DNA of 64,000 nt from Gammaproteobacteria bacterium (lineage in GTDB: Bacteria > Pseudomonadota > Gammaproteobacteria > Steroidobacterales > GCA-2729495), in NCBI GenBank assembly GCA_030746435.1, contig JASLMV010000002.1, positions 1 to 64,000 on the forward strand, given 5' to 3'. Below are positions 50,287-58,340 of this stretch, in pieces; the first letter of the stretch is position 1; every line of letters begins with the position of its first letter. Made by a program: the position numbers and the translations under genes. A model generated the notes under the pieces. That model saw only the letters and a list, made by a program, of their open reading frames with translations. It was not told the origin of the DNA and searched no databases.

Positions 50287-51198
50287 GTGTCAAAAAATTG
50301 GGCCACAAGCTTTTGGTCGTCTTTAGTGACTGAATGGACTAAAAATAGTGCTGATGTGCTCGGCTATGAAATGGCCTGGGTCGAGATGGGCACCGGGGAT
50401 CCGATCGTCTTCCTGCACGGTAACCCGACTTCTTCTTTCCTCTGGCGAAACATTATGCCGGAGCTCGAAACATCCGGCCGCTGTATCGCGCCGGACCTTA
50501 TCGGCATGGGCGACTCTGCCAGGCTGCCGGATTCCGGCGCCGGTCGCTATGACTTTCACACCCACAGCAAGTTTCTCGATGCTCTCCTCGAGCATCTCGA
50601 CGTCGGCGAGCGGGTAACGCTCGTCGTGCATGACTGGGGTTCAGGCCTCGGTTTCGACTGGGCACGCCGGCACAGCTATGCGGTTGCAGGTATCGCGTAC
50701 ATGGAAGCATTCGTCCGGCCGCTGCACTGGTCCGAGTGGCCGGAGGCCATTCAACCGATTTTTGAAGGACTACGGTCCGAAGCCGGCGAGTCGATGATCC
50801 TCGACAAGAATATTTTTGTGGAACGCATACTCCCGGCATCTATCATGCGCAAACTCACCGACGACGAAATGGACGAATACCGGCGCCCGTTTATTGAGTC
50901 CGGCGAAGCGCGGCGCCCCATGCTCGACTGGCCGCGCCAGATACCGTTTGACGGCGAACCTGCCGATGTTTACGAACGCGTGCAGGCCTACGCCGACTGG
51001 ATGAGCGCGAATGATATTCCAAAGCTGTTTGTAAACGCCGACCCGGGTGCGGTCCTGATCGGCCCGCAACGCGAGTTCTGTCGCGGCTGGCGGAACCAGA
51101 CAGAGGTCACGGTCAGGGGCATACACTTTATCCAGGAAGATTCGGCAGCCGAGATTGCCTCGGCCCTGCGCGACTGGCACGCAACGCTTCCAGGCTGA
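50287..51198 (+). CDS. Haloalkane dehalogenase (HLD-II / DhaA-like)
   Basis: A 303-residue alpha/beta hydrolase that would convert haloalkanes to alcohols plus halide. With a GTG start at 50287, the nucleophile is Asp116 in VVHDWGSGLGF, Trp117 and Asn46 (HGNPTSS) are the halide-binding pair, Glu140 (MEAFVRPLHW) is the family II acid, and GIHFIQED carries the catalytic His. The N-terminus is uncertain: a GTG at 50326 (shortened by 13) is also possible and neither start has a good ribosome site. The family includes enzymes with no proved haloalkane activity in marine bacteria. Confidence 0.82.
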   Translation: MSKNWATSFWSSLVTEWTKNSADVLGYEMAWVEMGTGDPIVFLHGNPTSSFLWRNIMPELETSGRCIAPDLIGMGDSARLPDSGAGRYDFHTHSKFLDALLEHLDVGERVTLVVHDWGSGLGFDWARRHSYAVAGIAYMEAFVRPLHWSEWPEAIQPIFEGLRSEAGESMILDKNIFVERILPASIMRKLTDDEMDEYRRPFIESGEARRPMLDWPRQIPFDGEPADVYERVQAYADWMSANDIPKLFVNADPGAVLIGPQREFCRGWRNQTEVTVRGIHFIQEDSAAEIASALRDWHATLPG

Positions 51199-51206
51199 AA
51201 AAATCA

Positions 51207-52055
51207 TCAGGCACCGTCCTGCACAAAATCACTGCTGTCCTTAAGCGCTGCTTCCGCCCTTGTGAGTTCCTTGCCAATATAAGCTGCGTGCTCGAGCCGT
51301 GTTACCCAGCCATCTTCGATGATGGTGAGGTACAGGTCGCGCGCGCCGGTCCCCTCGATCGTGTGCAGCAGTCGTTCCTTGTAATCGTAATGCTCGACCA
51401 ACAACCGCCCCGATTCCAGATTGATAATGAAGTAACCGGCCTTGTCGAGCTTGATGAGCTTCGGGTCGTGCGTTCGTGCCCGCAGGTACTCCTGTGTGTT
51501 GCCCGCATCGGCTTCGATGGCTTCGCCTTCTGTGGCAACCGCCTGACCGGCCAGTTCTGCGACTTTCGTGATGATTTTCTGCGGGTCGGTTTCGCCGATC
51601 ATGTCGACGGGTTGCACCTGCCCCCTGAAGGAGTCGACCTCTTCTGTACTCGTGTTCGGCAGGACCGGGCGCATCCCGGGTGAACCAACTATTTCTTTGG
51701 TTGCATCGATGCCGTTTTCGAACAATGCGGAGAGGGTTGCACCCGTCAGGTGCTTCGGAGGCTCCGCACCTGCGAGTACCAGGTATTGGATGGCGCGGTT
51801 ACCGAGTATGTTCCTGACGATTTTTTCTATACCGATATTCTCGGTCTCGACCTTGCCGACGATACACAGCCCCTCCGGTTCCAGTTCGCTGATCTCACGC
51901 GCCAGGTCAACGGATCCCAGGGTCGTAACGGCTACCGGCGCCTGCGGGTCGTGGACGAAGTACTTGCCGGGCACGAATGGCCAGCGGCGTTTGCGTTTAC
52001 GAGTTGTTGCGAAGGTTCTGGTCAGGAAAAAGCCAAAGTCTTCCGCTTTACCCAT
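51207..52055 (-). CDS. MtrA-like corrinoid-binding protein fused to a DUF4346-like domain
   Basis: A 282-residue protein. The ATG at 52055 has a strong GGGGAGGG about 8 bases upstream (a longer frame to 52331 is unlikely). Residues 25-175 match the corrinoid subunit MtrA of methanogen methyl-H4MPT:coenzyme M methyltransferase: WPFVPGKYFVHDPQAPVAVT, then KVETENIGIEKIVRNILGN, LVLAGAEPPKHLTG and VQPVDMIGETDP. His102 in PKHLTG (codon 51750-51752) aligns with archaeal His84, the cobalt ligand. Residues 195-282 (HDPKLIKLDKAGYFII to SSDFVQDG) resemble DUF4346. The C-terminal membrane helix of archaeal MtrA is absent, so the protein should be soluble. It may carry methyl groups on a corrinoid. Confidence 0.82.
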   Translation of the reverse strand: MGKAEDFGFFLTRTFATTRKRKRRWPFVPGKYFVHDPQAPVAVTTLGSVDLAREISELEPEGLCIVGKVETENIGIEKIVRNILGNRAIQYLVLAGAEPPKHLTGATLSALFENGIDATKEIVGSPGMRPVLPNTSTEEVDSFRGQVQPVDMIGETDPQKIITKVAELAGQAVATEGEAIEADAGNTQEYLRARTHDPKLIKLDKAGYFIINLESGRLLVEHYDYKERLLHTIEGTGARDLYLTIIEDGWVTRLEHAAYIGKELTRAEAALKDSSDFVQDGA

Positions 52056-52102
52056 TTTTTTACCCTCCCCGCTCAGAATATTGATGATGGCCGTATCCTG
52101 CA

Positions 52103-52160: not shown

Positions 52161-52772
52161 ATGGGCATCTGGAACGATAAGGTCTTGCCGCGGCTCATTG
52201 ACCGTGGCATGCGCAGAGAAGAGTTGGAGGAGCACCGTTACCGTGCCGCTCCGCTGGCGACCGGTCGCGTACTTGAACTTGGCGTAGGTTCGGGCCTGAA
52301 TTTTGTGCACTACGGCAATGCGGTCGAGCATCTGTTTGCGCTCGAACCCTCAGCACATTTGCGGGAGCAGGCGGAAGAACCGGCTGCAGATGTGCCCTTC
52401 GGCATCGATTTCCTCGACGCGTCGGCCGAGGCCATACCCCTGGATACGGGTGAGGTCGATACCGTAGTCAGCTCCTGGACCCTGTGCTCAATCCCCGACC
52501 TGGAAACCTCGCTGCAGGAGATCAGGCGGGTTTTGAAACCGGACGGCAAGCTGGTGTTTATTGAGCACGGGCGTTCTCCGGATCCGCGTATTGCCCGCTG
52601 GCAGGACCGGCTCGTGCCTTTATCCACGCGCCTGCTGGGCTGCAGCCTGAACCGGCCGATGGATACGCTGATAAATGACGCCGGTTTCAATATGCTGGAG
52701 TTGGAAAAGGACTATCTTGAAGGGCCCAAACTGATCGCCTATCACTATATTGGTCAGGCACGTCCTGCCTGA
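52161..52772 (+). CDS. Class I SAM-dependent methyltransferase (METTL7/UbiE-like)
   Basis: A 203-residue soluble methyltransferase. Motif I is RVLELGVGSGLNFVHYG, then LFALEPSAHLREQAEE, the acidic loop VDTVVSSWTLCSIPDLETS and LKPDGKLVFIEHG, with a CSLNRPMDTLINDAGF end that recalls METTL7-like thiol methyltransferases. The substrate is unknown. It is divergent from the MtrA-like gene and may share the palindrome at 52103-52119 with it. An exported helical protein gene (amber codon) follows in 20 bases on the same strand. Confidence 0.8.
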   Translation: MGIWNDKVLPRLIDRGMRREELEEHRYRAAPLATGRVLELGVGSGLNFVHYGNAVEHLFALEPSAHLREQAEEPAADVPFGIDFLDASAEAIPLDTGEVDTVVSSWTLCSIPDLETSLQEIRRVLKPDGKLVFIEHGRSPDPRIARWQDRLVPLSTRLLGCSLNRPMDTLINDAGFNMLELEKDYLEGPKLIAYHYIGQARPA

Positions 52773-55592: not shown

Positions 55593-56465
55593 TCAGGCTG
55601 CTTTCGCCAGTTCGGTTACTTCCACCGCGTACGCCCAGATTCTGCGCCTCAGTTCCGCATCGTCAGTAACCTTCGAAGGGTCCTTCGGTTTACGGTTTTC
55701 CCAGTACTGACCGGTCTGGCCGTCAACTTCCGCGCCGGTCACAAGGAAAATATGCGTACGGGCCCCGCTTTCCGGCGACGGCAGGAAAGGTCTGGCAAGT
55801 TTTATAGCTAGCCCCCACAGGCCGCGCATATTTCTGTAGACATTGGTTCCGACGAAATAACCGGGTGAGACGGCATAGACTGACACGCCTGTGCCGTCCA
55901 GCATTTCCGCAAGGTCACGGGAGACTGCGACAAGGCAGAACTTTGAACGCGCATAGGCCTGGAACCCACAGCCGTGGTTCACCTTGTCCCACTTCCTGCG
56001 GTTATCGATGTCGTCCCAGTCGAGGCCTTGCGCCGATTTATGGGCCTCCGAGGCGATATTGATTATGCGTGCCGGTGACGATGCCCTGAGCTTATCCAGC
56101 AGCAGGTTGGTTAACAAAAATGGCCCCAGAAAATTGGTGGCCATCGTCAGTTCGAAACCATCCGCACTTTCCCGGCGGATCGATTCAACAATTCCCGCAT
56201 TGTTCACCAGGATATCCAGCCGGTCGTAGTCACGGTTTATCCGGTCGGCAAGTCGCCGCACGTCTGCAAATGAACTGATATCGCATTCGATGAATTCGAT
56301 ATCGTTATTTCCGGTTGCTGCGATGATTTCATCGCGCGCCTCGAGGCCGTTAGGCACATCTATATCGACGCAGATGAGCCGCATTCCTGCTTTTGCAGCG
56401 CTTATAGCCGTGAGCCTGCCCATGCCGCTCGCGGTGCCGGTAATCAGGCAGGTTTTTTGGGTCAT
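55593..56465 (-). CDS. Short-chain dehydrogenase/reductase (SDR)
   Basis: A 290-residue oxidoreductase. The nucleotide motif is TGTASGMG (TGxxxGxG), NNAGIVESIRR is the NNAG element, IINIASEAHKS has the catalytic Ser, and YARSKF is the Y-x3-K pair. The classical form with a C-terminal extension resembles retinol dehydrogenase-like SDRs that use NADP. It is divergent from the MarR gene across the 18 bp palindrome at 56520-56537, so it is a likely target of that regulator. Confidence 0.88.
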   Translation of the reverse strand: MTQKTCLITGTASGMGRLTAISAAKAGMRLICVDIDVPNGLEARDEIIAATGNNDIEFIECDISSFADVRRLADRINRDYDRLDILVNNAGIVESIRRESADGFELTMATNFLGPFLLTNLLLDKLRASSPARIINIASEAHKSAQGLDWDDIDNRRKWDKVNHGCGFQAYARSKFCLVAVSRDLAEMLDGTGVSVYAVSPGYFVGTNVYRNMRGLWGLAIKLARPFLPSPESGARTHIFLVTGAEVDGQTGQYWENRKPKDPSKVTDDAELRRRIWAYAVEVTELAKAA

Positions 56466-57038: not shown

Positions 57039-58340
57039 TCAGGCGGTTTCCCGTTCGCCCGGCGCAATGACGCGCACTATCGCTGTAACAACCAGTAGCA
57101 CAGCCTGCAGCGCGCCGACCACGATGAACGGGCCGGCCGGCCGCCACTCATCGAACCAGATGCCCCCGAAATAACTGAAGATCAGTATGCCCAGCGCGCC
57201 GAACATGCCGTTCATACCGATGACGGCCGCGCGTTCCTTACGCGCCGCTTCCTGCCCTACCAGGCCGATCGATGCCATGATGGCACTGCCCGAGCCCAGC
57301 GTCAGGATGATGAAAAACGGAAACATGGCGTAGTCGAGCGGACTCGTTACGAACACCATCGACAGGTAGCCGGTGCTGGCGAAGAACATCGCGACGATCA
57401 TCGCGGTTACGCGGTTTACCTTGTCCATGATCCAGCCGAATAGCGGTTGCCAGATCACGGAGACTAACTGCATCGCGACCAGGATAAGCCCGAAACGCGC
57501 CATCGCCTGGCCCGGATTCATGTCCCATTTGGAAGCATCCTGTATTGCCCACAGCGACAGGAACATACCCTTGATCACGAGGTCGGAGCGGCCCGTAAAT
57601 GCGCACGCAAATGACAGGCAGATACGCGGGTTACGCATGGCCCTGAGGCCGGCCGTTGCCAGCCGGGCATAGTCGGGGCGCTCCCTGATGGCAGCGGGTG
57701 TGCCGCCCCTGAGTCCCTTGTGAAAAATCAACGCCGAAACCATGCACAACCCGGCGCACAGCAAATACATGACCTTGCCGCCGGTAACTGCGTCATAGCC
57801 GCCCGCCTGGACCAGCGCCGGTACCTGCGCAATCGCGCCGCCGACAAACATGACGCCAAACGTATTCATCATGGAGCTGATACCGATCATCTTGCCGCGC
57901 GAACGGCCCTGCGGGTAATCGTTGGTCAGTGTCGCGATAATCGTGGCCGATGCGGATGCGCCGACCGCGTAAATCATCCGGTAAACGAACAGTTCATCGA
58001 AGGTCGTTGCGTACGGATACAAACCGTAGCCGAGACCGATCGCGATTATTGCCAGGATTAGCATGGGCCGGCGGCCGATTTTGTCGCCCAGCACGCCGAA
58101 CAGCGGCATCATGATGATCATCACGATTTCGGTCCAGACCGAGAGTATCCCGGTAAGCTGGCCCTGCTGGGCCCTGGGGATGGCCAGGTGTTCGGTCAGC
58201 ACATAACCCTGCAGCAGGCTCATCCCGGACAACATCCCTATCGATACAAAGGATGCGTACAACTTCGCGATGGCATTGCCACGGGTTATGCCCGGCGTGA
58301 GCCAGATAGGACCCAGACGGTGTGCGATGGCTTCTTGCAT
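57039..58340 (-). CDS. Major facilitator superfamily transporter
   Basis: A 433-residue inner-membrane protein with twelve predicted helices. Motif A is GVLGDKIGRRPM between helices 2 and 3, and the second half has the related GWIMDKVNRVT. The likely role is proton-coupled uptake or efflux of an organic acid. The convergent position next to MarR, and the SDR and CoA-transferase genes nearby, suggest a shared substrate. No residues identify it. Confidence 0.82.
   Translation of the reverse strand: MQEAIAHRLGPIWLTPGITRGNAIAKLYASFVSIGMLSGMSLLQGYVLTEHLAIPRAQQGQLTGILSVWTEIVMIIMMPLFGVLGDKIGRRPMLILAIIAIGLGYGLYPYATTFDELFVYRMIYAVGASASATIIATLTNDYPQGRSRGKMIGISSMMNTFGVMFVGGAIAQVPALVQAGGYDAVTGGKVMYLLCAGLCMVSALIFHKGLRGGTPAAIRERPDYARLATAGLRAMRNPRICLSFACAFTGRSDLVIKGMFLSLWAIQDASKWDMNPGQAMARFGLILVAMQLVSVIWQPLFGWIMDKVNRVTAMIVAMFFASTGYLSMVFVTSPLDYAMFPFFIILTLGSGSAIMASIGLVGQEAARKERAAVIGMNGMFGALGILIFSYFGGIWFDEWRPAGPFIVVGALQAVLLVVTAIVRVIAPGERETA

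Follow-up and report, generated by a model that had tools for sequence, protein, structure and literature searches.

A gammaproteobacterial gene in which an MtrA-type domain is joined to a DUF4346 domain is best read, with a modest preference and by homology, as encoding a putative soluble corrinoid methyl carrier, MtrA-like in fold, that has a pterin-associated domain in the same chain. An earlier note on this DNA had proposed a soluble corrinoid methyl carrier, which still appears the likeliest reading, and had placed it in a pathway not yet described in bacteria, which has to be narrowed: bacterial MtrA homologues have been published (the available parts of PMC4915002 and PMC9635834), and it is the MtrH-less, DUF4346-fused form that is unusual. 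Bacterial MtrA as a category is known and this form is a rare variant of it, set apart by the DUF4346 fusion and by a genome in which MtrH, Mch and the RACo reactivase are all unmatched. As far as we know, MtrA-fold corrinoid proteins have a single established function, in the sodium-pumping step of methanogenesis. Finding a soluble bacterial MtrA in a genome lacking MtrH and Mch matches raises the question of what else this cofactor site is used for, one that can be tested with proteins that can probably be expressed.

The gene and its product

The features of the gene are given below in positions of the window, which is the whole stretch of 64,000 nucleotides that was analysed.

51207 to 52055, minus strand (52055 to 51207): mtrA-DUF4346 gene, 282 amino acids (ORF list with translation, Pfam, relatives)
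52063 to 52070, minus strand: ribosome-binding site GGGGAGGG, 7 bases upstream of the ATG
51519 to 51998, minus strand: MtrA (PF04208) corrinoid-binding domain, residues 20-179 (Pfam and fold match to 5laa_B)
51216 to 51449, minus strand: PterinBD-DUF4346 (PF14251) domain, residues 203-280 (Pfam)

The coordinates in the earlier note were right, with the minus strand as the coding strand, and every sequence block it had quoted was found in the translation. The strong ribosome site that it described is GGGGAGGG, a good site ending 7 bases 5' of the ATG. An alternative start at 52331, which would give 374 residues, is unlikely, and the 282-residue start is favoured because the conservation of relatives begins at or beside that methionine. 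A chance reading frame is excluded by the profile scores, the 56-63% identity to relatives from other genomes and an excess of differences between relatives at third codon positions, present in all five pairs compared. The GC content of the gene (57.4%) is about that of the window (58.5%), so composition gives no foreign mark. The protein contains one cysteine in total, and its maximum 19-residue Kyte-Doolittle mean of 0.9 agrees with the lack of a membrane anchor noted before. Across the 2.43-Mb genome (96.84% complete), it is the sole match to PF04208 and the sole match to PF14251 (E up to 0.001).

The MtrA domain

The PF04208 profile matched the window protein over positions 3-160 of 173 with 133.1 bits (cut-off 25) and an E of 1e-38, confirming the MtrA homology that had been seen by eye, and in a search of PDB sequences MtrA chains were the only matches below E 0.01. 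Structure prediction gave a mean pLDDT of 70.7, low at residues 1-27 and in the linker 177-203 and between 72 and 95 per 10-residue block across residues 31-170. Comparison of this model with cobalamin-bound MtrA (5laa_B), as had been suggested earlier, recovered the Rossmann-like MtrA fold (Z 22.9, rmsd 1.8, 151 residues aligned). In Foldseek, MtrA structures alone stood out (E 3.8e-13, TMt 0.83), and the best fold other than MtrA was succinyl-CoA synthetase, at Z 9.2.

The likeness to MtrA and to its cytoplasmic homologue (PF04208; PDB 5laa, 5l8x) covers the whole domain, with 36-37% identity over the structure match, and includes the cobalt-ligand His, the Glu-His linkage and the tail-pocket residues of methanogen MtrA. 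Unlike methanogen MtrA, the window protein has no membrane anchor (as in cytoplasmic MtrA homologues), adds DUF4346, sits in a bacterial host without Mch where MtrH was not found, and scores 121.1 bits against TIGR01111, the equivalog model of Mtr complex subunit A, below the cut-off of 249.15. NF002128, a 390-position NCBIfam equivalog named Mtr subunit A, already spans MtrA plus DUF4346 and can be aligned to the window protein across both domains, at profile positions 103-370 and 295.5 bits, short of the 568 bits required. The window protein has no counterpart to roughly the first 100 positions of the profile, where long-form relatives have a Cys-rich region.

Relatives and their distribution

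A scan of a genome collection with two peptide patterns returned 55 stretches, 10 of which encode a relative at 56-62% identity; this count is a lower bound because only stretches with the patterns were tested. These relatives came from metagenome-assembled genomes of Gammaproteobacteria (or its orders or genera), Alphaproteobacteria/Rhodospirillaceae and KSB1. Sampled surveys, each including the window's own genome, gave matches in 5 of 60 relatives, 8 of 396 genomes of the order and 8 of 369 of the class, the last made up of three short forms, four long forms and one DUF4346-only protein. No match was present in the four other genomes of the same genus that were sampled. When the phylum sample was searched with NF002128, 33 of 398 genomes matched, and a strong match spanning both domains was found only in the window's genome (295 bits) and in G499 (519 bits). 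Weak matches in G473 and G425 covered MtrA positions of the profile, and the remainder fell at its DUF4346 end, mostly in ORFs of ~500 residues. A small match in G1127 (E 4e-4) lay outside any nameable ORF. The distribution of MtrA-DUF4346 is patchy.

Three forms were distinguished. The short form comprises the window protein and 11 others. The long form, counted at 7 loci, carries an N-terminal Cys-rich extension with KCWRCGC ... CLGCEVCWP in most members, and its loci include plasmid ones, in Paraburkholderia (L024) and in Planococcus (L026). The degenerate form was found at four loci:

L011 7212-8075; L012 1905-2807; L093 5698-6597; L094 7077-8066: degenerate MtrA-DUF4346, with an SLC12-type gene directly 3'

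PF04208 matches in the two degenerate proteins scanned were weak (3.3e-12 and 6.5e-7). The tree, which was midpoint-rooted for drawing only and left 7 of 22 inner branches open, separated a group of short and degenerate forms from the long and archaeal ones (100/99). Several stretches overlap in origin: G251 is the same DNA as the genome of L016, and L017, L020 and L022 are the same DNA as the G017, G030 and G010 stretches. Between L014 and L016 the gene shows 26 base differences; both are within the 12 short forms, and L016 is outside the 11 loci used for the ArsR count below. The L025 and L026 proteins are identical and were counted once, and a third Planococcus plasmid (H3) is outside the count.

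The predicted corrinoid site

Crystallographic work on MtrA gives His84 as the cobalt ligand, hydrogen-bonded by Glu54, with side-chain contacts to cobalamin from Thr53, Asn55, Asn64 and Tyr18, backbone contacts from Asp17, Lys52, Gly57, Asn82 and Ile111, and the base packed by Val61 (available parts of PMC4915002). The corresponding codons in the window are:

51750 to 51752, minus strand: His102 codon (CAC), equivalent of the cobalt-ligand His84 (alignment; site from PMC4915002)
51837 to 51845, minus strand: Thr71-Glu72-Asn73, equivalents of Thr53/Glu54/Asn55 (alignment; roles from PMC4915002)

The earlier pairing of His102 with His84 held, the CAC at 51752-51750 aligning with the MtrA ligand, and Glu72, Thr71, Asn73, Asn82 and Tyr32 of the window protein also align with MtrA corrinoid-site residues. 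The alignment compared the 12 short forms, window protein included, with 7 long forms, 4 degenerate forms and 2 archaeal MtrA fragments. In MtrA numbering, Tyr18, Thr53, Glu54, Asn55, Gly57, Asn64 and His84 are identical in all 12 short and all 7 long forms, and positions 17, 52, 61, 82 and 111 are variable in the bacterial forms or unlike the archaeal residue. Among the four degenerate forms, Thr53, Glu54, Asn55 and Gly57 are replaced in every one and His84 in three (in L093 a His occupies this column, in an uncertain part of the alignment), with Tyr18 kept in all four and Asn64 in three. The intact site of the short and long forms, set against its loss in the degenerate form, provides an internal contrast that argues for a corrinoid site, and we regard the window protein as having a predicted one. 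By strong homology, its MtrA domain would hold a cobamide base-off, with His102 as the lower ligand backed by Glu72, and a methyl group would most likely be shuttled on the cobalt, as in MtrA.

DUF4346 as a candidate pterin-associated module

The fusion to DUF4346 proposed in the earlier note was borne out by the PF14251 profile, which scored 72.5 bits (cut-off 29.6; E 5.1e-20). Predicted alone, the domain had a mean pLDDT of 87.7, and nothing passed E 0.001 in a fold search with it; the highest Z, 6.2, was to a ribosomal protein and may reflect a common arrangement. A DUF4346 profile search of PDB sequences reached only E 0.93, and no solved relative was found. As DUF4346 alone lacks a convincing PDB match, the case for pterin binding is made from the family name and the domain partners. 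Residues 189-280 align with the C-terminal end of the DHPS-like model TIGR00284 at E 3.9e-10, far under the whole-protein cut-off of that model, and the 500-residue L040 protein combines Thymidylat_synt with PF14251; the thymidylate-synthase domain was checked in this one of the ~500-residue DUF4346 ORFs. These DHPS-like and thymidylate-synthase-like proteins resemble the window protein in the C-terminal domain, whereas L040 has no MtrA match at Pfam level. Because a related domain ends both kinds of protein and its Pfam name is PterinBD, DUF4346 is read as a candidate pterin-associated module, one that would serve the MtrA domain in cis for docking or binding. The alignment of this domain left out L018, L035 and N_L093.

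By eye, the N-terminal part of the thymidylate-synthase-like protein with C-terminal DUF4346 (L040 6425-7927, in G386) looks like an MtrA domain. Many of the phylum-sample genomes have DUF4346 ORFs of ~500 residues. In the degenerate form, most of the corrinoid site is gone and DUF4346 is still well conserved.

One-carbon and cobamide context

The earlier note had seen no further Mtr subunit in the window, and for MtrH, which binds methyl-H4MPT, this extends to the whole genome (G000, completeness 96.84), in which none was found. None of the 13 short-form genomes had MtrH over the cut-off, and the weak matches below it (E 3.6e-4) in G251 and G805 are the same place in the same genome. Mch, chosen as the marker of the H4MPT (methanopterin) one-carbon pathway, was found in none of the 17 short- or long-form genomes; the three controls (M. 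jannaschii, H. volcanii, M. acetivorans) were positive. A methanopterin-dependent Mtr reaction was rejected on these two results. With no MtrH or Mch match in the genome, methyl chemistry would be tied to tetrahydrofolate or another donor, folate or SAM being likelier donors since both markers are missing. RACo_C_ter, the chosen marker of ATP-driven corrinoid reactivation, was found in 2 of the 17 genomes (G803 and G808), not in that of the window.

The host, judged by its sequence, uses cobamides, since it encodes a MetH, a methylmalonyl-CoA mutase and an IcmF-like mutase, which make up its three PF02310 matches. MetH has Met_synt_B12 (429.6 bits), S-methyl_trans, Pterin_bind and B12-binding domains, and the IcmF-like mutase has MeaB and mutase domains. 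The MtrA-like protein as sole methionine route was rejected, since the genome encodes MetH.

MtrA-type proteins outside methanogenesis have precedents. According to the available parts of these sources, many archaeal and bacterial lineages carry MtrAH (PMC9635834), Asgard archaea have MtrA-like and MtrAH fusion proteins (PMC11291895), and in methanogens MtrA is predicted to be the methyl donor of MesA (PMC7857596). The MtrAH systems (PMC9635834, PMC11291895) share with the present protein an MtrA-type protein outside methanogenesis, but all 13 short-form genomes lack MtrH over the cut-off. In the literature searched, no description of an MtrH-less, DUF4346-fused MtrA form was found. No paper on DUF4346, alone or with MtrA, was found in a search that most subscription journals fall outside. 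As a domain common to thymidylate-synthase-like and DHPS-like proteins for which no solved structure was found, DUF4346 is of interest in its own right as a candidate pterin module.

Methyl carrier or cobamide handling

Some observations weigh against the preferred reading as a methyl carrier: RACo_C_ter, which bears on how Co(I) would be regenerated, is found in only 2 of 17 genomes, not including the window's, the short forms have no conserved partner, and the distribution is patchy. The strongest alternative, which we nevertheless consider unlikely, is a protein that binds cobamide for the storage, sensing or delivery of B12 or cobalt and transfers no methyl group. The absence of MtrH over the cut-off (0 of 13) and the scarcity of the reactivase (2 of 17) fit such a role, as do CbtA-type cobalt transporter genes near two short-form loci, L014 (CbtA, 211.8 bits, cut-off 182.9) and L019 (PF09490, 107.3 bits, cut-off 30.7). 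Thiocyanate hydrolase is a cobalt enzyme, however, and its presence nearby could also explain CbtA. The degenerate form, which is directly followed by an AA_permease and SLC12-domain gene at all four loci (L011, L012, L093 and L094), indicates that the scaffold can persist without the site; its own role is probably non-corrinoid. Against storage or sensing, the His-Glu linkage is invariant in the short and long forms and is not obviously needed for storage.

Metal and sulfur settings of the subfamilies

Metal(loid) or organometal methylation or demethylation, in which the Cys-rich N-terminus would bind the metal and the corrinoid would move the methyl group, is suggested by the long form and is an improbable role for the window protein, which has one Cys and no Cys-rich domain and none of whose 12 neighbouring ORFs scanned is a metal gene. 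An ArsR-type regulator lies 0.7 to ~6 kb from the gene at 6 of 7 long-form loci (L026, L036, L037, L038, L039 and L096), compared with one of 11 short-form loci and none of the 4 degenerate ones; the profile used for this count was derived from the regulators of the long form and is biased toward long forms, and at L024 it found none. MerC exceeds the Pfam cut-off at L036 and L096, but the NCBIfam MerC models score the L036 gene at 38.1 bits (cut-off 170) and 27.9 bits (cut-off 140), far under. Heavy-metal P-type ATPase genes are present at L026 and L038, a cation efflux gene at L039 and thioredoxin and DsbD-like genes at L036, and the motifs KCWRCGC and CLGCEVCWP point in the same direction as these clusters. 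No MtrA paper was found in the literature searched under HgcA and metal topics. The occurrence of the long form in metal-resistance clusters provides a concrete and testable link of an MtrA-type corrinoid protein to metals. At L022 (8620-10603), an ArsR-type gene is followed by genes that by eye are arsenate-reductase-like and ACR3-like, ~4 kb from a short-form gene.

Less probable still is an accessory role in thiocyanate or one-carbon sulfur catabolism of sulfur oxidisers, with the gene carried from there into other hosts. Thiocyanate hydrolase gamma (TIGR03887; 391.8 bits in L021) is over the cut-off in 4 of 13 short-form genomes (4 of 12 without a duplicate) and in 9 of 369 genomes of the class sample; the comparison of 4 of 12 with 8 of 366 other genomes gives a one-sided Fisher p of 2.5e-4 in a post hoc test that ignores kinship. 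The hydrolase lies within 8 kb of the short-form gene at L014, L021 and G367, and at L014 TusA and DsrE-type genes are also present. Set against this, the window's genome has no match to the gamma subunit, a short-form match is missing from eight of the nine class-sample genomes that carry the hydrolase, and for L019 the hydrolase is known at genome level only. A literature search pairing thiocyanate hydrolase with corrinoid or MtrA had no mention of the hydrolase among the matches listed. An SQR-like protein near some short form scored under the cut-off, and an L014 neighbour once thought to be DUF1641-like had no Pfam or NCBIfam match. L014, L019, L021 and L035 carry short-form genes in genomes with thiocyanate hydrolase, some with CbtA and sulfur genes nearby.

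The subfamilies look as though they have been recruited to different jobs, thiocyanate or sulfur chemistry for some short forms and metal resistance for the long form. Extended to the whole family, the methyl-carrier reading becomes a doubtful, speculative proposal: a folate-linked, MtrH-independent carrier uniting a corrinoid site with a pterin-binding module would have been redeployed by bacteria for non-methanogenic tasks, with the long form in metal(loid) methylation or demethylation, some short forms in thiocyanate or sulfur chemistry and one site-less branch as partner of an SLC12-type transporter.

Neighbours of the window gene

The genes around mtrA-DUF4346 that could be compared with other loci are:

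50287 to 51198, plus strand: haloalkane dehalogenase, convergent neighbour (NF002938, 411 bits, cut-off 241)
52161 to 52772, plus strand: class I SAM methyltransferase, divergent neighbour, 105 bp intergenic (Methyltransf_11, 5.9e-20)
55593 to 56465, minus strand: short-chain dehydrogenase (adh_short; 44% identity to L013 6124-7032)
56562 to 57038, plus strand: MarR-type regulator (MarR; 50% identity over 121 aa to L013 8100-8672)

While the earlier note had named the dehalogenase and the methyltransferase correctly, they were rejected as pathway partners: with blastp at E 1e-5 on flanks of 2-8 kb, no homologue of either turned up among the 10 further short-form loci that were compared. No conserved operon partner was seen among the short forms, and the survey of related genomes that had been suggested for the neighbours likewise yielded none common to these loci. 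That the gene is a horizontally acquired hitch-hiker with no present role is very improbable; it would suit the patchy distribution, the lack of matches in the four other same-genus genomes and the lack of a shared operon, but not the third-position bias in 5 of 5 pairs, the site kept whole in all 12 short forms or the good ribosome site.

The window has an MFS transporter gene at 57039-58340, and in L018 (38%) and L020 (55%), too, a relative of it is located a few kb away from the MtrA gene; MFS genes are common, and nothing is drawn from this. In the tree the window protein is closest to L013 (86/97, not a starred branch), and this locus has the short-chain dehydrogenase and MarR genes in common with the window, and between them at L013 7036-8106 lies a gene for a DUF169 protein with a PCP_red domain.
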